A stretch of 64,000 nucleotides of DNA from Acetobacteraceae bacterium. Its GTDB lineage: Bacteria > Pseudomonadota > Alphaproteobacteria > Acetobacterales > Acetobacteraceae. A program made the position numbers and the translations under genes. The first letter of the stretch is position 1. Every line of letters begins with the position of its first letter. Of this stretch, positions 21,048-33,780 are shown one piece after another. Below the pieces are notes generated by a model. That model worked only from the letters and a program-made list of their open reading frames with translations. It searched no databases and was not told where the DNA came from. The stretch is taken from the NCBI GenBank assembly GCA_021732665.1, contig JAKFUL010000023.1, forward strand, positions 1 to 64,000. Reading direction: 5' to 3'.

Positions 21048-22514
21048 ATGGCTTTCGATGAAATGCGGGATGGCGAGGTGGCACAGGCCACCTATGCCGA
21101 GATCGCCGCCTGGGTGGAGCGCACGCCGCTCGACCAGCTGCGGCAGAAGAGCGCGGAGGCGGAGCTGCTGTTCCGCCGGCTGGGCATCACCTTCGCCGTC
21201 TATGGCGAGGGTGGCGATCCGGAGCGGCTGATCCCTTTCGACATCATCCCGCGCATCATCGCCGCCAGCGAATGGCGGGCGCTTTCGGCCGGGCTGGAGC
21301 AGCGGGTGCGGGCGCTCAACGCCTTCCTGGGCGATGTCTACAACGAGCAGCGCATCCTCAAGGCCGGCATCATCCCCACCGCCCTGATCCTGGAAAACGC
21401 GGCCTATGAGCCGAACATGGTGGGCTTCACGCCCCCCGGCGGCATCTACACCCACATCTCCGGCATCGACATGGTGCGCACCGGGCCCGACGACTTCTTC
21501 GTGCTGGAGGATAATTGCCGCACGCCCTCGGGCGTCTCCTACATGCTGGAGAATCGCGAGGCGATGCTGCGGCTCTTCCCCAAACTCTGCGCCCGCCATC
21601 GCCTGGCACCCGTCAACCGCTACCCGGAACACCTGCTGGCGACGCTGAAATCGGTGGCGCCCGAGCGCGCGGGGCCGGACCCGACGGTGGTGATCCTGAC
21701 CCCGGGCAGCTTCAACTCGGCCTATTACGAGCATTGTTTCCTGGCCGACGAGATGGGCGTGGAGGTGGTGGAGGGCGCCGATCTCTTCGTCGAAAACGAC
21801 GTGGTCTTCATGCGCACCACCGCCGGCCCGAAGCGGGTGGATGTGATCTACCGCCGCATCGACGACGACTTCCTGGACCCCGAATGTTTCCGCGAGGACA
21901 GCCTGGTGGGCGTGCCGGGCGTGATGCGCGCCTACAAGGCGGGCAATGTCACGCTGGCCAATGCGCCGGGTGCCGGCATCGCCGATGACAAGGCGATCTA
22001 CCCCTATGTGCCGGAGATGGTGCGCTTCTATCTCGACGAGGAACCCAGGCTTGCCAATGTGCCGACCTTGCTGTGCGAGCGCGAGGCGGACCGCGCCGAG
22101 GTGCTGGCGAACCTGGAAAAGCTGGTGGTCAAGCTGGCCCGTGGCTCGGGCGGCTATGGCATGATGATCGGGCCACACGCGGATGAGGCGATGCGCGAGG
22201 AATTCGCCCGCCGCATCCGGGAAAAGCCCGGCGACTACATCGCCCAGCCGACGCTGGCGCTCTCCACCGTCCCCACGCTGGCACCCGGCGGCATCGCGCC
22301 ACGGCATGTGGATCTCAGGCCCTTCATCCTGTTCGGGCGGCAGGAGATCACCATGGTGCCGGGCGGGCTGACGCGCGTGGCGCTGCGCGAGGGTTCGCTG
22401 GTGGTCAATTCCAGCCAGGGCGGGGGCACCAAGGACACCTGGGTACTGGAGGAGGCGGCCCCGCCAAGCCAGTCTCAATCGCAGTCGCAGAGCCAGGGCC
22501 AGGGAGACGCCTGA
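21048..22514 (+). CDS. circularly permuted ATP-grasp protein
   Basis: The 488-residue cytoplasmic protein matches the circularly permuted ATP-grasp type 2 family: YGEGGDPERLIPFDIIPRII near the N-terminus, NAFLGDVYNEQRIL, FVLEDNCRTPSGVSYMLENR, and the C-terminal KLARGSGGYGMMIGP. ATP-grasp enzymes join a carboxylate to an amine, so a peptide-ligase-like role is expected; the product is unknown. It is translationally coupled to the alpha-E gene (stop and ATG share one base) and followed by Anbu, a recognised operon theme. The last 15 residues are an unusual Gln-Ser/Gln-Gly repeat. Confidence 0.9.
   Translation: MAFDEMRDGEVAQATYAEIAAWVERTPLDQLRQKSAEAELLFRRLGITFAVYGEGGDPERLIPFDIIPRIIAASEWRALSAGLEQRVRALNAFLGDVYNEQRILKAGIIPTALILENAAYEPNMVGFTPPGGIYTHISGIDMVRTGPDDFFVLEDNCRTPSGVSYMLENREAMLRLFPKLCARHRLAPVNRYPEHLLATLKSVAPERAGPDPTVVILTPGSFNSAYYEHCFLADEMGVEVVEGADLFVENDVVFMRTTAGPKRVDVIYRRIDDDFLDPECFREDSLVGVPGVMRAYKAGNVTLANAPGAGIADDKAIYPYVPEMVRFYLDEEPRLANVPTLLCEREADRAEVLANLEKLVVKLARGSGGYGMMIGPHADEAMREEFARRIREKPGDYIAQPTLALSTVPTLAPGGIAPRHVDLRPFILFGRQEITMVPGGLTRVALREGSLVVNSSQGGGTKDTWVLEEAAPPSQSQSQSQSQGQGDA
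22468..22505 (+). repeat. low-complexity Ser-Gln coding repeat
   Basis: Imperfect 6-base units of the type CAGTCN/CAGAGC encode alternating Ser-Gln and Gly-Gln at the C-terminus of the ATP-grasp protein, immediately before its stop. Such repeats can vary in length by slippage. Confidence 0.6.
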
Positions 22515-23446
22515 TGCTCAGCAGCACCGCCGAATGCCTGTTCTGGCTGGGCCGCTACACGGAGCGCGCGGCGAACATCGCCCGTGGCCTGGGTGTTGCC
22601 AGCCGCATGGCCTCGCTCAGCGCCTCGCTGGGGGGCGAGAGTGCCGAATGGCGCGCGCTTCTCGTCGCCAGCGGCGGCGAGGAGGCCTTCTCCGAGAAAT
22701 ACGAGACCATCTCCCAGGACGCCGTGGTGGATTGGCTGGTGCGCGACCAGGACAACCCGAGCAGCATCTACACCTGCTTCGAGGCGGCACGCCGCAATGG
22801 CCGCGCCGTGCGCACGGCACTCACGGTCGATATGTGGAGCGCGCTGAACGACAGCTGGAATGATTTGCGCAAGCGCGATCTCGCGCGGATCGAGGGCGAG
22901 GAGCTGCCGGCATTCCTCGACTGGGTGCGTGAGCGCGCCCTGCTGTTCAACGGTGCTGCCACCGACACCATGCTGCGCGGCGAGGCCTGGAGGTTTGTCC
23001 AGCTCGGAACGGCGCTGGAGCGGGCGGACAACTCGGCGCGGCTGCTCGATGTGCGGCACGGCATGCTGGCGGTGGGCGAGACGGCGGAATACGCGCAGTG
23101 GCAGGCGGTGCTGGCCTCGGCCTCGGCGGCGCGGGCCTATCAATGGGTGTTCCGCGACCGGCTGGACCCGAAGAAGATCGCCGAATTGCTCATCCTGCGG
23201 CCGGAACTGCCGCGCAGCCTGGTCGCCTGCTTCGGCCGCGTGTCGGAGCTGCTGGAGGCCATCGCCACCGAGCAGGGCGGCCGCCAGGGCGAATGCCACC
23301 GGATGGCCGGCGAATTGCACGCCCGGCTGCGCTATGCCCGGATCGACGATATCTTCGAGGAGGGGCTGCACGTCTTCCTCACCCGCAAGATCGAGCGCGC
23401 CGCGGCCCTGGGCGCGGCGATCGACGGCTTCTACATTCGGGGCTGA
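22514..23446 (+). CDS. alpha-E domain-containing protein (DUF403)
   Basis: The 310-residue, mostly helical protein opens MLSSTAECLFWLGRYTERAANIAR, the characteristic start of the alpha-E family. It also has ALERADNSARLLDVRHGML and FRDRLDPKKIAELLILRPELPRSL. Alpha-E proteins are regularly encoded beside circularly permuted ATP-grasp enzymes, transglutaminase-like proteases and Anbu, in a system proposed to make or process a peptide tag. Biochemical function is not established. The ATG overlaps the ATP-grasp stop by one base. Confidence 0.9.
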   Translation: MLSSTAECLFWLGRYTERAANIARGLGVASRMASLSASLGGESAEWRALLVASGGEEAFSEKYETISQDAVVDWLVRDQDNPSSIYTCFEAARRNGRAVRTALTVDMWSALNDSWNDLRKRDLARIEGEELPAFLDWVRERALLFNGAATDTMLRGEAWRFVQLGTALERADNSARLLDVRHGMLAVGETAEYAQWQAVLASASAARAYQWVFRDRLDPKKIAELLILRPELPRSLVACFGRVSELLEAIATEQGGRQGECHRMAGELHARLRYARIDDIFEEGLHVFLTRKIERAAALGAAIDGFYIRG

Positions 23447-23467
23447 CCACCCGGAGGAAAGCGCCCG

Positions 23468-24199
23468 ATGACCTATTGTGTTGGCCTGTGCCTGGAGCAG
23501 GGCCTTGTGATGCTGGGCGACACCCGCACCAATGCCGGGGTGGACAACATCTCCACCTTCTCGAAGCTGCAGCGGGTGGAGGTGCCGGGCGAGCGGGTGA
23601 TCGGCCTGGCCACCGCCGGCAACCTGGCCATCACCCAGGCGGTCTGGGGCCATTTGCAGGAGGGGGTGTTCCTGGATGGCCAGCGGCTGCGGCTGCCCGA
23701 TGTGCTGAACATGTTCCAGGCGGCGCGGCTGGTGGGGGCGGCGGTGCGGGCGGTCTTCGCGGCCGACGGCCCCACGCTTTCGGCCCAGGGCATCGGCTTC
23801 GATTGCAGCCTGCTGGTGGGCGGGCAGATCGGCGAGGAGCCACCCCGGCTGTTCCTGATCTACGCCGCCGGCAATTTCATCGAGGCCACGGCCGACACAC
23901 CTTTCCTGCAGATCGGCGAGCATAAATACGGCAAGCCCATCCTGGACCGGGTGCTGACCTATGACACGCCCATCGCCGATGGGGTGAAGCTCGCGCTCGT
24001 CTCGATGGACAGCACGCTGCGCTCCAACCTCACCGTCGGCCTGCCGATCGACCTGCTGGAGGTCAAGCGCGACGAGCTGCGGGTGCACCAGTGGCGCCGG
24101 ATGGGCGAGGACGACCCGTATTTCGCCGCGGTGCGGCAGGGTTGGTCGGAGGCGCTGCGGCACGCCTACATGGTCATGCCCGCGCCGGACTGGGCCTGA
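23468..24199 (+). CDS. anbu: Anbu, proteasome-like peptidase
   Basis: The 243-residue protein is an Ntn-hydrolase of the bacterial ancestral-beta-subunit type. It starts MTYCVGL, so after loss of Met the N-terminal Thr2 would be the nucleophile. GDTRTNAGVDNISTFSKL is an Anbu hallmark, with the general-base Asp/Lys region included. Anbu assembles into open rings; its natural substrate is unknown. GGAGG lies upstream of the ATG. It follows the ATP-grasp and alpha-E genes by 21 bases. The transglutaminase-like protease gene often found in this operon is missing. The last 34 bases overlap the convergent glycosyltransferase gene. Confidence 0.92.
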   Translation: MTYCVGLCLEQGLVMLGDTRTNAGVDNISTFSKLQRVEVPGERVIGLATAGNLAITQAVWGHLQEGVFLDGQRLRLPDVLNMFQAARLVGAAVRAVFAADGPTLSAQGIGFDCSLLVGGQIGEEPPRLFLIYAAGNFIEATADTPFLQIGEHKYGKPILDRVLTYDTPIADGVKLALVSMDSTLRSNLTVGLPIDLLEVKRDELRVHQWRRMGEDDPYFAAVRQGWSEALRHAYMVMPAPDWA

Positions 24200-26403
24200 A
24201 GGCAACGCGCGCGCCAGGCATCGCGCAGCGCCGCGGCCAGATTGGCCCCGAAGCGCGGCGCGTCCATCAGCGGTGAGGCCGCCATGCGCGCCCGCATCCC
24301 GGCCCGCAACCCGGCCAGGGCCGGTATTTCATGGGCCGCCGCCACGGCGCGGGCGACATAGCCTGGCCCATCCTCGGCCACCCAATGGCCCAGGCCGAGA
24401 TTGTTGAGATGCGACACGGCGTGCCGGCCCGAGAAACTGCTGCCGGCCATGGCGACGAGCGGCACGCCCATCCACAACGCCTCGCAGGCGGTCAGCCCGC
24501 CGGCATAGGGGAAGGGGTCGAGCGCCACATCGATGTCGTTGTAGCCTTCCAGCAGCGCCTCATGCGGGCTGGGGCCATGCAGTTCCAGCCGTTCCACCGG
24601 CAACCCGGCTCCATGCGCACGGGCGATGAACCGCGCCCTGGTCGCGGCATCGCCCAGCCCATGGGTGCGCAGCACCAGCCGCGCGCGGGGCAGGGCGGCG
24701 AGGATGGCGCCCCAGGCGGAGAGCACGTCCGGCGTGATCTTGGCCAGGTTGTTGAAGCAGCCGAAGGTGACATGGCCGCGGGCCAGGGCGGGCAGGACTC
24801 CCACCGGCGGCGCCCAGGGCGGGGGCGTGTAGCAGACATAGCCATCGGGCATGCGCAGCAGGGATTCGGTGTAATGCGCCTCGCTGCCCGGCGGCGTCTG
24901 CCAGGCATCGGTCAGCATCCAGTCCAGCCCCGGCACGCCGGTGGTGGCGGATTGCGCGCCGACCCATTTGACCTGCACCGGCGCGGGACGATGGGCCAGG
25001 GCGGTGACGCGCCCGCCCTCGCCATGCCCGCCCAGATCGACCAGGATATCTGGCTGATCGGCGCGGATGGTCTCGGCCAGGGCGCCATCCTCCAGCCGCG
25101 GCAATTCCCGCCACAGATCGGCCCGCGCTTGGAAGCGCCGGGCCAAGGCGTCGGGCATCGGCTTGAGGGAGTAGCAGACCACCTCGATCGCCTCCCGCGG
25201 CAGGGCCTCGATCCCCGCCAGGGTGAGCCAGCCCACCGGGTGTCGGCCGAAGGAGGCGCTGAGGAAACCCACCCGCAGCCGCCGGTCGGGCGCGAAGCCG
25301 GGCGCATGCGGGGGGGCCGCGACCTGCGGCAGCCGTGCGCCCAGCAGACTGGCCGTGGCATGCAGCGCCTGGCCAGAGCCGAGCCTGGGGTGATAGGGCT
25401 GGATGCCGAGCCGGCAGCCCAGCGCCAGCACCGTGTTGCCGGCCTGTTCGGAGACGGCCAGCGCCTCCTCCTGCAACCCCTGGCCGCAGAGGGTGAGGGC
25501 GAGGTTGCAGAGCAGCGAGGGCAGGGCGCCGAAATCCGCCACCGCCGCTTCCAGCACCAGCCGCGCTTCGGCCAGCCGATGCAGGCGCAGCAGGGTGATG
25601 CCGTGCTGGCTGCGCAGTTGCACATCGCCGGGCTGCGCCTGGATGGCCTCGGCAAGCAAGGGCTCGGCCTCGCCGTGGCGGCGCTGGTCGGCCAGGTGCA
25701 GGCCCAGCAGGGCGAGGAGGGCCGGGGATTCATCGGACAGGATGGTGGCCAGGCGCAGCGTGGCGATGCCCGCCTCGGTGGCGCCGGCGGCGAGTTCGGC
25801 GAGGCCGATGGCGGCCTGCCAGTGCCATTCCAGCGGCGCCTGGGCGGCCTCCTCGCGCAGATCGGCGGCTTCGACCAGCCGTGCGGCGAGGCGCACCGCC
25901 TCCATCCCGCCCAGCCCGGCGCGGAGCAGGGCGACAACCTCGGCGGCCGAGCCGCGCAGCCGGGCCCGCATCAGCGTCAGGCCATGATCATCCGGTGCCA
26001 GCAGCAGCGCCTGCGCCACCAGCAGCATGGCCTCCTCCACGTCGCCCCGCGCCTCGGCCAGGGTGGCCAGGCCGGCCAGGCTCATGACATGGTCGGGCTC
26101 CACGGCCAGCGCGCCCTCGAAACCGGCGCGCGCCTCCTCCCAGCGCTGCTGCTGGACGGCGATCTGGCCGAGGCGAAAGCGTGGCTCGGCCATGTACGGC
26201 ATGGCCTGGCGGGCGGCGCGCAGATGCGGGCCGGCCTCCGCCAGCCGGCCCAGATCGCCCAGCGCCATGCCCAGGTTGAGCTGCGCCAGCGCCGCCTCCT
26301 CGCCGCTGTCCAGGCAGGCCCGCAGCAGCGGAAGCGCGGCCTCCGTCCGCCCCGCCGCCAACGCGTCCATCGCCATGCGGAAGGGGGCGGCGACGAGGTT
26401 CAA
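24166..26403 (-). CDS. TPR protein with O-GlcNAc-transferase-like (SPINDLY) domain
   Basis: The 745-residue protein has TPR-type helical repeats over about residues 1-340. A glycosyltransferase family 41-like domain follows to the end: RLRVGFLSASFGRHPVG, ILVDLGGHGEGGRVTALAHRPAPVQV, then WVGAQSATTGVPGLDWML, TFGCFNNLAKITPDVLSAWGAIL and the GGLTACEALWMGVP nucleotide-sugar region. Enzymes of this type put a single sugar on Ser/Thr of cytoplasmic proteins. It is the last gene of a run flagellin, flaF, TPR-methyltransferase, this gene, and overlaps the methyltransferase by 4 bases. Flagellin is therefore the likely target. The sugar donor is unknown. There is no signal peptide. Confidence 0.87.
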   Translation of the reverse strand: MNLVAAPFRMAMDALAAGRTEAALPLLRACLDSGEEAALAQLNLGMALGDLGRLAEAGPHLRAARQAMPYMAEPRFRLGQIAVQQQRWEEARAGFEGALAVEPDHVMSLAGLATLAEARGDVEEAMLLVAQALLLAPDDHGLTLMRARLRGSAAEVVALLRAGLGGMEAVRLAARLVEAADLREEAAQAPLEWHWQAAIGLAELAAGATEAGIATLRLATILSDESPALLALLGLHLADQRRHGEAEPLLAEAIQAQPGDVQLRSQHGITLLRLHRLAEARLVLEAAVADFGALPSLLCNLALTLCGQGLQEEALAVSEQAGNTVLALGCRLGIQPYHPRLGSGQALHATASLLGARLPQVAAPPHAPGFAPDRRLRVGFLSASFGRHPVGWLTLAGIEALPREAIEVVCYSLKPMPDALARRFQARADLWRELPRLEDGALAETIRADQPDILVDLGGHGEGGRVTALAHRPAPVQVKWVGAQSATTGVPGLDWMLTDAWQTPPGSEAHYTESLLRMPDGYVCYTPPPWAPPVGVLPALARGHVTFGCFNNLAKITPDVLSAWGAILAALPRARLVLRTHGLGDAATRARFIARAHGAGLPVERLELHGPSPHEALLEGYNDIDVALDPFPYAGGLTACEALWMGVPLVAMAGSSFSGRHAVSHLNNLGLGHWVAEDGPGYVARAVAAAHEIPALAGLRAGMRARMAASPLMDAPRFGANLAAALRDAWRARCLQAQSGAGMTM

Positions 26404-27896
26404 GGCGGGGCTCCGGCCGCCTGCGCCGCCACCAGGAAGCCGGCCAATGCCGCATCGGCCTCCAGCCGCAGCGCCTCACGCCGCAGCAGCAGCGGCACGA
26501 GGCCGGCCGCGGCCAGCGCGCGGCGCAGCCCGGCCTCGCTGTGGCGATAGCGGCCGCTATCGGTCAGCGTCCATTCCGCCGCGTCATCCGAGGCCTCGAC
26601 GGTGAAGAGCAGCAATCCGCCCGGCGCCAGCCGCGCCGTGATGGCGGCCAGCGTGCCATCCAGCGCGCCGAGGTAGCAGAACACGTCCGCGGCAATCACC
26701 GCCTCGTATTGCGTGCCGTCGCGGGCCAGCGCCACGTCGATCTCGGCATGCTCCAGGCTGGTGTAGACGCCCTTCAGCCGCGCCTCCTCCAGCATGGCGG
26801 GGGAAAGATCGACGCCCTTCAGCCGCCCCGCCACCAGATCATGCAGCACCACGCCGATCAGCCCGGTGCCGCAGCCCAGATCCAGCACGTCGCCCAGCTT
26901 GCGCCCCGGCGGCAGGCCGGCGCCCAGCCCCGGGAGCAATGCCTCCAGCGCGCGCAGGATCAGCCCCGGGGCGCGATAGCCCAGGCCCAGAAGCGAGGCC
27001 TCGAAGCCCGCGGCATAGCCGTCGAAAAGATGGGTGACATAGGCGGCGGCGGCCCGCTCGGGCGCCTGCGCGGGATCGTCGAAACTGGCGGCGAGATGGC
27101 CGATATAGGCATCATCCGGCGCCAGCCTGTGAGCCTGCATGAGATGTCCGCGTGCCTGGGGCCGCTGGCCCAGCTTGATCAGCGCATGGGCCGCGATGCT
27201 GTGCAGCGTGGCGTCGTGGCCCAGCGCGGCAAGCCCGGCATTCGCCGCCTCCAGCGCCGCCTGAGGCTGGCCGCGCAGCAGCGCGTTCTGCGCCCGCAGG
27301 CCGAGTGCCAGGCGGCGAGAGGCTTCGGGCAGCAGCAGGCCATCGAGCAGGAAGGCGAGCAGTTCGGCCGTCGCGTCATGCCGGCCCGCGCGCATCATGG
27401 CGTCGGCCAGGCGAAGCGCGCCGCCCGCCTCCTCCGGCGCCTCGCGCCAGACCTCGCCCAGCACGCTGATCGCCTCGTCATGCCGGTCGCTGGCCAGCAG
27501 CGCCTGGCCCAGCAGGATGCGCGCGGCCTCGTCGCGCGGGGCTAGCAGCACGGCGCTGGCGGCATCGCCCAGCGCCTCCCGCGCACGGCCCAGCCGCCCC
27601 AGGGCGCGGGCGCGCGCCAGCAGCAGCGGCAGGCTGCCCTCGTCTGCTTCGGACGCGCCCGCGCAGGCCTCCAGCGCCGCCTGCGGTTCGCCCAGAGCGA
27701 GCAGCGCCTCGGCCAGCGCAATCCAGGCCGCCGGCTCACCCATGGCGGTGGCCGCGGTGCGCAGCAGCGGCAGCGCCTCGGCCGGCTTGCCGGCGGCGAG
27801 CAGGCGCCGGCCCTCCGCCAGCAGGCGCTGGCCCAGGCCGGCCCGGGGCCGGGCGGGAAGACTGGCGGGGCCGGCCGGCGCTGCGGCTTGGCTCAT
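26400..27896 (-). CDS. TPR-repeat methyltransferase
   Basis: The 498-residue protein combines Ala/Leu-rich TPR repeats (about residues 25-280) with a class I SAM methyltransferase domain. Motif I is VLDLGCGTGLIGVVL near residue 340; GVDLSPAMLEEAR and YEAVIAADVFCYLG follow. TPR-fused methyltransferases of this layout are found in alphaproteobacteria near flagellar or glycan genes. The gene begins 4 bases after flaF and overlaps the O-GlcNAc-transferase-like gene by 4 bases (ATGA), so the three are surely co-transcribed. It may methylate flagellin or the sugar attached to it; this is inference from position. No membrane segment or signal peptide is seen. Confidence 0.85.
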   Translation of the reverse strand: MSQAAAPAGPASLPARPRAGLGQRLLAEGRRLLAAGKPAEALPLLRTAATAMGEPAAWIALAEALLALGEPQAALEACAGASEADEGSLPLLLARARALGRLGRAREALGDAASAVLLAPRDEAARILLGQALLASDRHDEAISVLGEVWREAPEEAGGALRLADAMMRAGRHDATAELLAFLLDGLLLPEASRRLALGLRAQNALLRGQPQAALEAANAGLAALGHDATLHSIAAHALIKLGQRPQARGHLMQAHRLAPDDAYIGHLAASFDDPAQAPERAAAAYVTHLFDGYAAGFEASLLGLGYRAPGLILRALEALLPGLGAGLPPGRKLGDVLDLGCGTGLIGVVLHDLVAGRLKGVDLSPAMLEEARLKGVYTSLEHAEIDVALARDGTQYEAVIAADVFCYLGALDGTLAAITARLAPGGLLLFTVEASDDAAEWTLTDSGRYRHSEAGLRRALAAAGLVPLLLRREALRLEADAALAGFLVAAQAAGAPP

Positions 27897-27900
27897 GCGA

Positions 27901-28299
27901 TCAGGCCCACAGGCCGGCGGCGATCTGTTCGTTCATTTCCGCCACGAAAGGCAGGTCGGGCCGCTCCGCCTCGCATTCGCGCAGCACCGCGCGGGCCAGG
28001 CTGGCCAGTTGCGCGCGCAAACCCTTGGGCAGGGCATTGGCCGGGTCGAGCACCGAGACCAGCACGGCGTCCCACAGCCGGCGATTATCGGCCACCGCGC
28101 GGGCGAGGGCGAGCGGCGAGGACTGCGCCTCGGCCTCGCGGATGCTGCGCGTGGCGCGGGCGAAGACCTCCGCTTCCATCTGCTTGGCGCTGATGCGCCG
28201 ACGATAGGCCGCGGCTCCGAGATTGGCGCCAGACAGGGGCGCGGGTCCGGGAAGGGCCGGGCTGGCCTCGATGATGGATGTGCCAAGGGTTTCGGACAT
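27901..28299 (-). CDS. flaF: flagellar biosynthesis regulator FlaF
   Basis: The 132-residue helical protein matches FlaF: AYRRRISAKQMEAEVFARATRSIREA, ALARAVADNRRLWDAVLVSVLDP and LASLARAVLRECEA. FlaF is needed for flagellin production or secretion in alphaproteobacteria such as Caulobacter, where it works with FlbT. No flbT lies beside it here. The gene is 104 bases downstream of flagellin in the same direction, with a terminator-like hairpin between them that could reduce read-through, and 4 bases upstream of the TPR-methyltransferase gene. Confidence 0.88.
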   Translation of the reverse strand: MSETLGTSIIEASPALPGPAPLSGANLGAAAYRRRISAKQMEAEVFARATRSIREAEAQSSPLALARAVADNRRLWDAVLVSVLDPANALPKGLRAQLASLARAVLRECEAERPDLPFVAEMNEQIAAGLWA

Positions 28300-28348
28300 G
28301 GGAATCTGCTATCCTTCTCGACGGCTGCGCGCCGTTTCGACAAAGCGG

Positions 28349-28379
28349 AAAAGCCGGGGCGGCATCCTGCCAAGGCCCC
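28349..28379 (-). terminator. terminator-like hairpin after flagellin gene
   Basis: Read on the minus strand, the outer arms GGGGC/GCCCC (28375-28379 and 28356-28360) and inner arms GGCA/TGCC form a stem of nine pairs with a small bulge. CTTTTCC follows (TTTT at 28349-28352). It lies 25 bases past the flagellin stop and upstream of flaF, so it may give strong flagellin mRNA ends with partial read-through into the modification genes. Confidence 0.55.
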
Positions 28380-28403
28380 GTGAGGTGTTCTTTGCCGCCG
28401 CGA

Positions 28404-29234
28404 TCAGCGGAACAGGCTCAGCAGCGACTGCGGCGCCTGGTTGGCGATGCCCAGCGCCTGGGTGCCCAGCTGCTGGCGGATCTGCAACGACTGCAGCTTC
28501 GCCGATTCCTTCGCCAGATCAGCGTCCACCAACGCGCCCACGCCCGATTCCAGCGCATCGATCTTCTTCTTGTTGAAGTCGACCTGGGTATCGACATAGT
28601 TGGTGCAGCTGCCGAAGCTGTTCAGCGTCGTCAGGGTATTGGTGATGGCGGTGCCGAGCTTGCCCGTCGCCGTCAACGCCGCCGCCGCATCGCCCTGCGT
28701 ATAGGCATTCGCGCCGGAAATGTTGTTGAAGATATTGGCGATGGCATCATACGCCGCCACCGAGTAGTTGTCGCCACTCGAGTTGGTGACGACCTTCACC
28801 GTGGCCCCGCCGGTGTCGATCAGGTTGCGGCCATTATAGTCGGCGTCGGTGATGAACGCCTTGATGTTGTTCGAGAGCTCCTTCACCTGGGTCTGGTACT
28901 GGGTACGCTGCTCGGTGGTGATGGCGCCGTCGGCCAGTTTGACCGTCAGCTCCTTCAGCTTGTTCAGGCTGGTCGAGACGTTCTCCAGGCTGGCCCGGGT
29001 CACGTCCAGCAGGCCCTTGGCGGCGCCCAGCTGTTCATTGGCCGAGGTGGTTGCGGCCACCTCGCCCCGCACGCGCTCGGCCACCGCGAAGGCCGCGCCG
29101 TCGTCACGCGAATCGGCCACGCGCAGGCCGGTCGAGATACGCTTCGATGTCACCGCCAGGGCGTCGTTCGTCTTGTTGAGCGACTGCAACGCCACCTGGG
29201 CGCCGATATTGGTCACGATACTGTTCAAGGCCAT
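28404..29234 (-). CDS. flagellin
   Basis: This 276-residue flagellin has the conserved N-terminal D0/D1 region (MALNSIVTNIGAQVALQSLN, RISTGLRVADSRDDGAAFAVAERV) and the C-terminal D0 helix ending in SAKLQSLQIRQQLGTQALGIANQAPQSLLSLFR. The central variable domain is short (about residues 140-190), typical of alphaproteobacterial flagellins. It contains Ser/Thr residues that could be modified. Flagellin is exported through the flagellar type III system and polymerises into the filament. GAGG lies 9-10 bases before the ATG. It heads a run with flaF, a TPR-methyltransferase and an O-GlcNAc-transferase-like gene. One Cys (SCTNY) is unusual for a flagellin. Confidence 0.95.
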   Translation of the reverse strand: MALNSIVTNIGAQVALQSLNKTNDALAVTSKRISTGLRVADSRDDGAAFAVAERVRGEVAATTSANEQLGAAKGLLDVTRASLENVSTSLNKLKELTVKLADGAITTEQRTQYQTQVKELSNNIKAFITDADYNGRNLIDTGGATVKVVTNSSGDNYSVAAYDAIANIFNNISGANAYTQGDAAAALTATGKLGTAITNTLTTLNSFGSCTNYVDTQVDFNKKKIDALESGVGALVDADLAKESAKLQSLQIRQQLGTQALGIANQAPQSLLSLFR

Positions 29235-32796: not shown

Positions 32797-33780
32797 CTAA
32801 CGCGGTTGCCTCGTGAGCAGAATCCCCGCCGCGTAATCCAGCCCCAGCAGGGCATCGCGGCTGAGCACCGGCCGACCCGGCTCCAGCCCGTAAAACCCGA
32901 GCCCCATCGCCGCCAGGGCATCGAGGAAATCGCCGATCCCGAAGCCCGCATGGGCGATCTGCCCGGGCGACCACTCCATCACGATCTGCAATTGCGGATT
33001 GGCCGCGATGGCGGTCGCCGCCCCCTGGAAGACCAGCGGCTCGGCGCCCTCGACATCGACCTTCATCACATCGAGCCGGCCCTCCCACCGGGTGACCGCG
33101 CCATCCACCGTCACCCCCGATACCGAGAAAGCCTCGCTCGGCGGCTCGCCCAGCAGGTCGGTGAAGGAATCGGGCACCCGCGCGATCGAGGTGTTGCCTG
33201 AACGGCCGACGCGCCGATGCAACTGCACCATTCTCTCGCTCTCGCAGGCCGCGTTCTGCCAGGGCGTGGCGTGGCCGCCAAAACCGTTGATGTGGATGTT
33301 GTCGCGCAGGATGGTGAAAAGCCGCGCGTCGGCCTCGATGCCGATGACCCGGCCCTGCGGACAGAAGCGCGCGAAGAGGCAGGTGAAATAGCCGAAATTG
33401 GCGCCGACATCGAGGCAGCGATCATCCGGCCGCAGGGTGGCGGCGAAGAAGTCCGTCAGCTCCGTCTCGTAATGGCCGGAGGCGATGAACCAAGGCGCGA
33501 TCAGCCGGTCATCGGCCTCGACCAGATAGGCGATGGTGTGGCCATGGACCACCGCCTTCAGCAGCACCAGCCCATGGCCCATATAGGTGGCGCGGCTGCC
33601 ATGGCTGAAATCCTCCAGCCGGGCAAGCCGTGCCTCCATGGCGCCAAGCCGCGCCTCGATGCTGCGCGCCAGGTCGAGCAGGCCGGTCACCTCCGGCGGC
33701 GCCTCGCCCCGCAGCCCCAGCCATCGCCCGAGTTGGCGGCCGAGCCTGAGGCCCGGGCCGGTCGAGGGGTCAGAGGGCAT
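32797..33780 (-). CDS. FkbM-family methyltransferase
   Basis: The 327-residue protein has a helical, probably coiled-coil N-terminal region (about residues 32-60), then an FkbM-type SAM methyltransferase domain: RCLDVGANFGYFTCLFARFC (SAM loop), GRVIGIEADARLF, NAACESE and the family signature DVMKVDVEGAEPLVFQG. FkbM enzymes O-methylate sugars or polyketide-like compounds. The target here is unknown; an extracellular or flagellar glycan is possible but not adjacent. The region between it and pntB holds no clear gene. It has no signal peptide. Confidence 0.86.
   Translation of the reverse strand: MPSDPSTGPGLRLGRQLGRWLGLRGEAPPEVTGLLDLARSIEARLGAMEARLARLEDFSHGSRATYMGHGLVLLKAVVHGHTIAYLVEADDRLIAPWFIASGHYETELTDFFAATLRPDDRCLDVGANFGYFTCLFARFCPQGRVIGIEADARLFTILRDNIHINGFGGHATPWQNAACESERMVQLHRRVGRSGNTSIARVPDSFTDLLGEPPSEAFSVSGVTVDGAVTRWEGRLDVMKVDVEGAEPLVFQGAATAIAANPQLQIVMEWSPGQIAHAGFGIGDFLDALAAMGLGFYGLEPGRPVLSRDALLGLDYAAGILLTRQPR

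Follow-up and report, generated by a model that had tools for sequence, protein, structure and literature searches.

A recurrent flagellin operon of Acetobacteraceae encodes a GT41-type candidate flagellin glycosyltransferase and a TPR-bearing methyltransferase

Introduction

FlmG of Caulobacter crescentus is a cytoplasmic glycosyltransferase with tetratricopeptide repeats (TPR), whose TPR part binds flagellins and which, given pseudaminic acid, is required and sufficient to modify them (PMC7591256, section 7); it modifies all six flagellins of this bacterium and accumulates before FlaF (PMC7591256). In Enterobacteriaceae, SPINDLY-type GT41 glycosyltransferases lie in variable flagellin islands between fliC and fliA and, apart from one named exception, come with a methyltransferase domain that is usually part of the same protein (PMC4875605), the combination of GT41 and methyltransferase at flagellin loci being already on record there. 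Here we describe a 64,000-nucleotide stretch of an Acetobacteraceae bacterium (assembly GCA_021732665.1, contig JAKFUL010000023.1, positions 1 to 64,000; hereafter the window), in which a flagellin gene and flaF are followed by the genes of a TPR-bearing S-adenosylmethionine (SAM) methyltransferase (MT) and of a TPR-GT41 glycosyltransferase (GT). The two enzymes are thus separately encoded, each brings a TPR half, and the operon that joins them to flaF recurs.

The best reading of this operon, which we hold with moderate confidence, is that GT acts as a cytoplasmic flagellin O-glycosyltransferase whose product is methylated by MT. What sets it apart from the systems above is that MT is a separate TPR-bearing protein, that the operon with flaF recurs, that no route to nonulosonic acids accompanies it and that MT has repeatedly been cut down to its TPR half. 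How cytoplasmic O-glycosyltransferases choose their proteins has been called poorly understood (PMC7591256), and the matter concerns OGT and SPINDLY too. The four-gene unit combines a GT41 enzyme, the protein presumed to be its substrate and another TPR partner, so that acceptor, donor and the roles of the TPR parts can be tested by co-expression.

Conservation of the gene order in genus and family

Close GT orthologues were found in 8 of 8 genomes of the same genus, with MT adjoining GT at all eight loci and flagellin and flaF also present at seven of them, the eighth contig beginning inside MT. In the family the recurrent order was fla-(flbT)-flaF-(DUF1217)-MT-GT. Six loci of other genera keep it, five with flbT between flagellin and flaF, and in four of these five a gene like the DUF1217 gene of locus L044 lies between flaF and MT.

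Among 150 family genomes, FlaF was detected in 117, a clear GT (E < 1e-100; 57 of the 79 genomes matched at 1e-30) in 57 and a clear MT in 51. The clear MTs were hand-picked out of 66 genomes and comprise broad matches (E ~1e-38 or better) together with a broken copy in G384; the remaining 15 matches, mainly in the methyltransferase domain, were taken as paralogues, and flagellin profiles gave no match around five of these presumed paralogues (L259-L263) and around L266. FlaF was present in 56 of the 57 GT-positive genomes versus 61 of the 93 GT-negative ones (Fisher p 3.8e-7, descent not corrected for). In 48 of 57 cases, GT and FlaF shared a contig and were within 9 kb of each other; MT lay within 6 kb of FlaF in 49 of 51 and adjacent to GT in 45 of 51. 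Nine GT-positive genomes had no clear MT: four were inspected (G325, G332, G375, G390), three are broken contigs (G368, G431, G438), MT is diverged in G321 and the locus of G317 was left out. Three had MT and no clear GT, which is real in G393, reflects a different arrangement in G336 and falls at a contig end in G414.

These data support the view that the gene set is conserved as a unit in association with flagellin and flaF and that MT belongs with GT, and they supply the survey of Acetobacteraceae suggested by the initial annotation, with the outcome that the order recurs. A literature search by title, whose coverage left most subscription journals outside, found no published description of this operon.

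Class and active site of the glycosyltransferase

The profile PF13844 scores GT at 135.5 bits (cut-off 25), and its N-terminal superhelix is matched by TPR_2 (3.3e-13) and other TPR models. The closest solved structures are SPINDLY (7y4i, 7.4e-87) and the T. terrenum enzyme (5djs, 4.7e-83), human OGT being weaker (7.8e-48). On alignment to SPINDLY, His388, Asn551, Lys555 and Tyr633 of GT correspond to H495, N661, K665 and Y744; the roles of the catalytic residues (SPY H495, OGT H558; SPY K665) are given in PMC9715652. We aligned 57 of 58 family sequences, one being too short, with 33 of 34 from the class. All 57 family GTs keep the His, the Asn and the Lys, and 55 keep the Tyr, the exceptions being one Ser and one gap at the frame break of L141. 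This supports the assignment of GT as a predicted GT41 enzyme with intact catalytic residues. Compared with the SPINDLY and OGT structures (PDB 7y4i, 5djs, 2jlb, 3pe3), GT thus has the core His, Asn and Lys and, as in SPINDLY, a Tyr at the donor gate, but the position of SPINDLY Thr748 is Leu in 56 of the 57 family GTs. A structure model of GT (mean pLDDT 68.6, five sequences) was not used.

Tyr633 stands where human OGT has Cys917. Since the Tyr at the SPINDLY donor gate leaves no room for GlcNAc, as argued in PMC9715652 (section 12), the donor of GT is more likely to be a smaller or deoxy sugar. The label of O-GlcNAc-transferase-like protein, under which GT had been annotated, holds as regards GT41 membership, given the profile and the conserved His and Lys; the O-GlcNAc part is doubtful, GT carrying Tyr633 where an O-GlcNAc transferase has a small residue (PMC9715652). 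The window's genome also holds a second GT41 gene (G000:C17:69006-70145), 36% identical to the first over the core.

Donor sugar

NeuB was found in 5 of the 150 family genomes and in none of the 57 GT-positive ones, the Caulobacter positive control being matched, so the sugar would not be pseudaminic acid and this route was rejected. The gmd gene (E at most 1e-60) was detected in 33 of the 57 GT-positive genomes, thus missing in 24, a further difference from SPINDLY, and was not found in the near-complete G319, G329 and G359; GDP-fucose is therefore unlikely as a general donor across the family, but may serve in this organism, whose own genome has gmd. The rmlC gene occurs in 56 of the 57, the sole miss being the window's genome, which is 69% complete; this fits dTDP-rhamnose without counting as evidence for it, because 142 of the 150 family genomes have rmlC. 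Most likely, the donor would be dTDP-rhamnose or a UDP-hexose. The Maf profile PF20157 matched 0 of 150 family genomes and no positive control, so that nothing follows from it. At a locus of another family (L050:5147-10647), flagellin, a TPR-GT41 gene, an NAD epimerase gene overlapping the latter by 4 bases and an FkbM methyltransferase gene stand in a row, an arrangement that may be a clue to the donor sugar.

Flagellin as the presumed acceptor

Linkage to the operon and analogy with FlmG point to flagellin as the probable acceptor. The same genome encodes a second flagellin (L277:10202-11038, G000:C1; 278 aa), 75% identical to the operon flagellin, with no flaF, MT or GT gene beside it, and each of the eight same-genus relatives has two strong Flagellin_N matches, the weaker third ones being taken as FlgL. 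The operon flagellin is thus probably not the sole flagellin of the genome, and one enzyme would be expected to serve both, because FlmG modifies all six Caulobacter flagellins (PMC7591256).

The central region of the operon flagellin (residues 141-191, 51 residues) contains 10 Ser/Thr, contrary to the early remark that it offers few such targets. In the comparison of flagellins, 50 of the 53 MT-positive loci gave a sequence of at least 240 aa; the seven flagellins from GT-positive loci without clear MT include those of L061, with a diverged MT, and L063, where the contig ends before MT and GT. Position 188 was Ser/Thr in 23/23 and 21/27 flagellins of the two groups with GT and MT, in 7/7 with GT and no clear MT and in 0/5 close flagellins without GT; for position 202 the counts were 22/23, 25/27, 5/7 and 1/5. 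These columns, which track GT with descent uncontrolled, are leads only.

Fold, losses and TPR half of the methyltransferase

The AlphaFold model of MT has a mean pLDDT of 91.3, and in a 36-sequence alignment L338-G345 (DLGCGTG), D363 and D404 are invariant. Its residues from about 275 to 495 align with class I SAM enzymes at Z ~20, the nearest folds being the N-terminal protein methyltransferase NTMT1 (Z 21.1, rmsd 2.6, 201 aligned), ChlM (20.9, 2.2, 182), NodS (20.3, 2.4, 187) and TylM1 (19.4, 2.5, 182). FliB is likewise a methyltransferase encoded beside flagellin, but it is an N-lysine methylase (PMC4875605).

On a tree of 63 GT cores, made by a quick method, the losses of MT are scattered: 5 changes are needed to account for the loci that lack it, well-supported branches require at least 2 of them, and a count this low arises in 95 of 500 shuffles. 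L061, whose MT match is weak (3e-17), was counted among the loci without MT, and L062 and L173 were not included; since L061 and L059 are sisters, the number of 5 changes is independent of L061. MT even differs within one genus, being absent from G348 and present in G422, and absent from G325 and present in G408. Because it is lost in scattered lineages while GT stays, MT is a dispensable partner of GT, and such repeated loss is what one would expect if MT added a decoration.

In three loci the TPR half of MT stands as an open frame of its own directly before GT: a 288-codon frame in L267, which shares 64% identity over 264 residues with the MT of the sister locus L164, one of 268 aa in L057 and a 256-codon frame in L059. 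Against the MT-TPR profile they reach 282, 200 and 132 bits, respectively, compared with 90 for the top-scoring TPR protein outside the MTs, whole or cut by a contig end. At the same position, L060 has a 159-aa ORF and L058 a 54-residue match only. The retention of the TPR half alone in three loci suggests a separate role for it.

Proposed pathway and alternative explanations

In the pathway that we propose, the operon would co-produce flagellin and its cytoplasmic modification enzymes. The TPR superhelix of GT would bind flagellin ahead of export, and the GT41 domain would move a sugar from a nucleotide donor, which would be no nonulosonic acid, onto Ser/Thr of flagellin; MT, with its own TPR superhelix, would then methylate the attached sugar, and the modified flagellin would pass to FlaF and the export gate. 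The O-linkage, the donor, the order of the steps and the methylation of the sugar and not of the protein are what we infer. A glycosylate-then-methylate pathway dedicated to the flagellin had already been suggested in the initial annotation. Its core agrees with the conserved flagellin/flaF unit, the GT41 His and Lys and the association of MT with GT, but the word dedicated is too strong, because the second flagellin has no modifying genes beside it. If the proposed pathway is true, TPR-type flagellin glycosylation can do without nonulosonic acids.

Several observations weigh against this pathway. The association tests ignore shared descent, and the window's own genome has gmd and no rmlC match. 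The fold leaves the target of MT undecided between sugar and protein, because enzymes of both types tie at Z ~19-21, and Lys methylation of glycosylated flagellins is known (PMC9290775). Furthermore, in G393, which has NeuB, MT adjoins flaF but no GT41 gene lies next to it (L055), and relatives of MT stand by flaF without a GT41 match in L084, where the flanks L264 and L265 were searched too, and in L128, a short contig; because of these three loci, MT can occur without this GT. These three loci, the known Lys methylation and the closeness of NTMT1 would suit a scheme in which GT glycosylates flagellin and MT methylates the flagellin polypeptide, at a lysine or the N-terminus, independently of the sugar. 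Flagellin position 31 seemed to agree, being Lys in 49 of 50 MT-positive loci versus 2 of 7 GT-positive loci without clear MT; however, 5 of 5 close flagellins whose loci have neither GT nor MT carry Lys there as well, so the residue fails to follow MT and the Lys enrichment was rejected as a signal of MT. As NodS and TylM1, which methylate sugars, have comparable fold scores, and as most clear MTs adjoin GT, polypeptide methylation appears possible and rather unlikely.

Eukaryotic OGT and SPINDLY modify many proteins. The MT-GT pair might likewise act on another protein, such as FlaF, FlgL or general targets, its linkage with flagellin being co-expression only, and the second flagellin, unlinked to the pair, would be in line with this. 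However, the linkage to flagellin and flaF recurs in this and other families, and FlmG provides a precedent for flagellin as the target (PMC7591256), which makes such a role improbable. The operon might itself be an FlmG system, with pseudaminic acid or a different nonulosonic acid as its sugar, as suggested by the shared architecture, a cytoplasmic TPR protein with a GT-B domain and a flagellar link (PMC7591256). Caulobacter flmG itself adjoins flaF. However, FlmG needs pseudaminic acid, and the GT-positive genomes have no NeuB. The word methyltransferase is absent from the main text of PMC7591256. TPR-glycosyltransferase proteins encoded beside flaF or flagellin in L114, L125 and L131 are remote relatives of the GT core and lack the GT41 Lys, whereas the window GT is canonical with His388 and Lys555. 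These proteins are FlmG-like by position, a likeness that is unproven, the FlmG sequence itself not having been compared. Altogether, we regard an FlmG system of this kind as very improbable. Next to the L125 gene there are also a Maf gene and an ORF that by eye resembles NeuB.

More tentatively, the sugar-methylation pathway could be extended to a second, nonulosonic-acid-free class of cytoplasmic flagellin glycosylation, in which a canonical GT41 enzyme works with a clamp of two TPR parts and the TPR half of MT is an adaptor holding flagellin for GT regardless of methylation. We consider this doubtful as it stands; it would explain why the operons of three lineages retain the TPR half after losing the methyltransferase domain.

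Operon layout and neighboring genes

The four ORFs lie on the minus strand (Table 1), and both the single direction and the tight spacing of the last three genes, as initially annotated, were confirmed by the ORF coordinates and, for the gene identities, by Pfam. Flagellin and flaF are 104 bases apart. The start codon of GT is TTG, with two in-frame ATGs 23 and 29 bases past the MT stop, and the TTG is supported because the 4-base overlap is common to the whole genus: an overlap of exactly 4 bases is possible in 9 of 9 members, including the window, and at 19 of 52 family loci. At 52 of 52 loci an in-frame ATG, GTG or TTG gives an MT-GT spacing between -26 and +39, which is partly expected by chance, because three start codons are allowed; the arrangement goes beyond chance because the order recurs in relatives and the exact overlap in all members of the genus. 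A scan for promoters and terminators gave no match in the operon gaps; the single sigma-70-like match (0.2 expected) falls inside the flagellin gene, and three matches resemble terminators (2.1 expected).

Table 1. Genes and subregions of the flagellin operon (positions in the window).
Feature	Coordinates	Strand	Evidence
Flagellin, 276 aa, presumed acceptor	28404..29234	-	Pfam Flagellin_N 2.6e-21, Flagellin_C 2.3e-14; order repeated in relatives
flaF, 132 aa, flagellin secretion chaperone / biosynthesis regulator	27901..28299	-	PF07309, E 1.2e-16
flaF-MT gap, 4 bases	27897..27900	-	ORF coordinates
TPR-SAM methyltransferase (MT), 498 aa	26400..27896	-	TPR_19 1.8e-17, Methyltransf_23 2e-12, Methyltransf_25; AlphaFold model
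TPR half of MT, ~residues 20-275	27072..27839	-	Helical part of model; TPR-only homologues L267, L057, L059
SAM methyltransferase domain of MT, ~residues 284-495, motif DLGCGTG	26412..27047	-	36-sequence alignment
MT stop / GT start overlap, 4 bases	26400..26403	-	Same overlap possible in 9/9 genus members
TPR-GT41 glycosyltransferase (GT), 745 aa, TTG start	24166..26403	-	Glyco_transf_41 2.3e-39; SPINDLY structure matches
Predicted GT41 catalytic core of GT, residues 360-740, His388/Lys555/Tyr633	24184..25326	-	Alignment to SPINDLY

A set of genes at 21063-24199 runs convergently to GT, overlaps the end of GT by 34 bases and encodes a circularly permuted ATP-grasp protein, an Alpha-E protein and a 243-aa ORF without Pfam match at 1e-4. 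An FkbM-type methyltransferase gene lies at 32797-33780 on the minus strand, outside the flagellin operon.

Related loci beyond the family

In the class, a FlaF match occurs in 108 of 289 genomes. From these we took 60 flaF loci outside the family, chosen for a spread over families and in some cases truncated by contig ends. A match to the GT core was present at 22 of them, 17 of these 22 keeping the GT41 Lys, and an MT match below 1e-40 at three (L084, L108, L128). In Indioceanicola profundi (Azospirillaceae, plasmid record), MT, a DUF1217-like gene, flaF and flagellin stand in a row with GT divergent. Most relatives of MT elsewhere, judged on the best 80 of 200 confirmed loci, have no flagellin gene in the surrounding DNA; among these 80, L177, L178, L179 and L182 carry flagellin, flaF and GT, L189 (Pseudoroseomonas deserti) has flbT and flaF, and L221 has a flagellin match ~8 kb off.

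Two further loci show other TPR genes at flaF. G393 has two flaF loci; in the second (L258:5982-10545), flaF, a DUF1217-like gene and the gene of a TPR protein of 638 aa come after flagellin, and this TPR protein shows a weak GT9-like match close to its end. In L127:3530-10644, a TPR protein without GT match and two TPR-GT41 genes lie between flaF and flbT.

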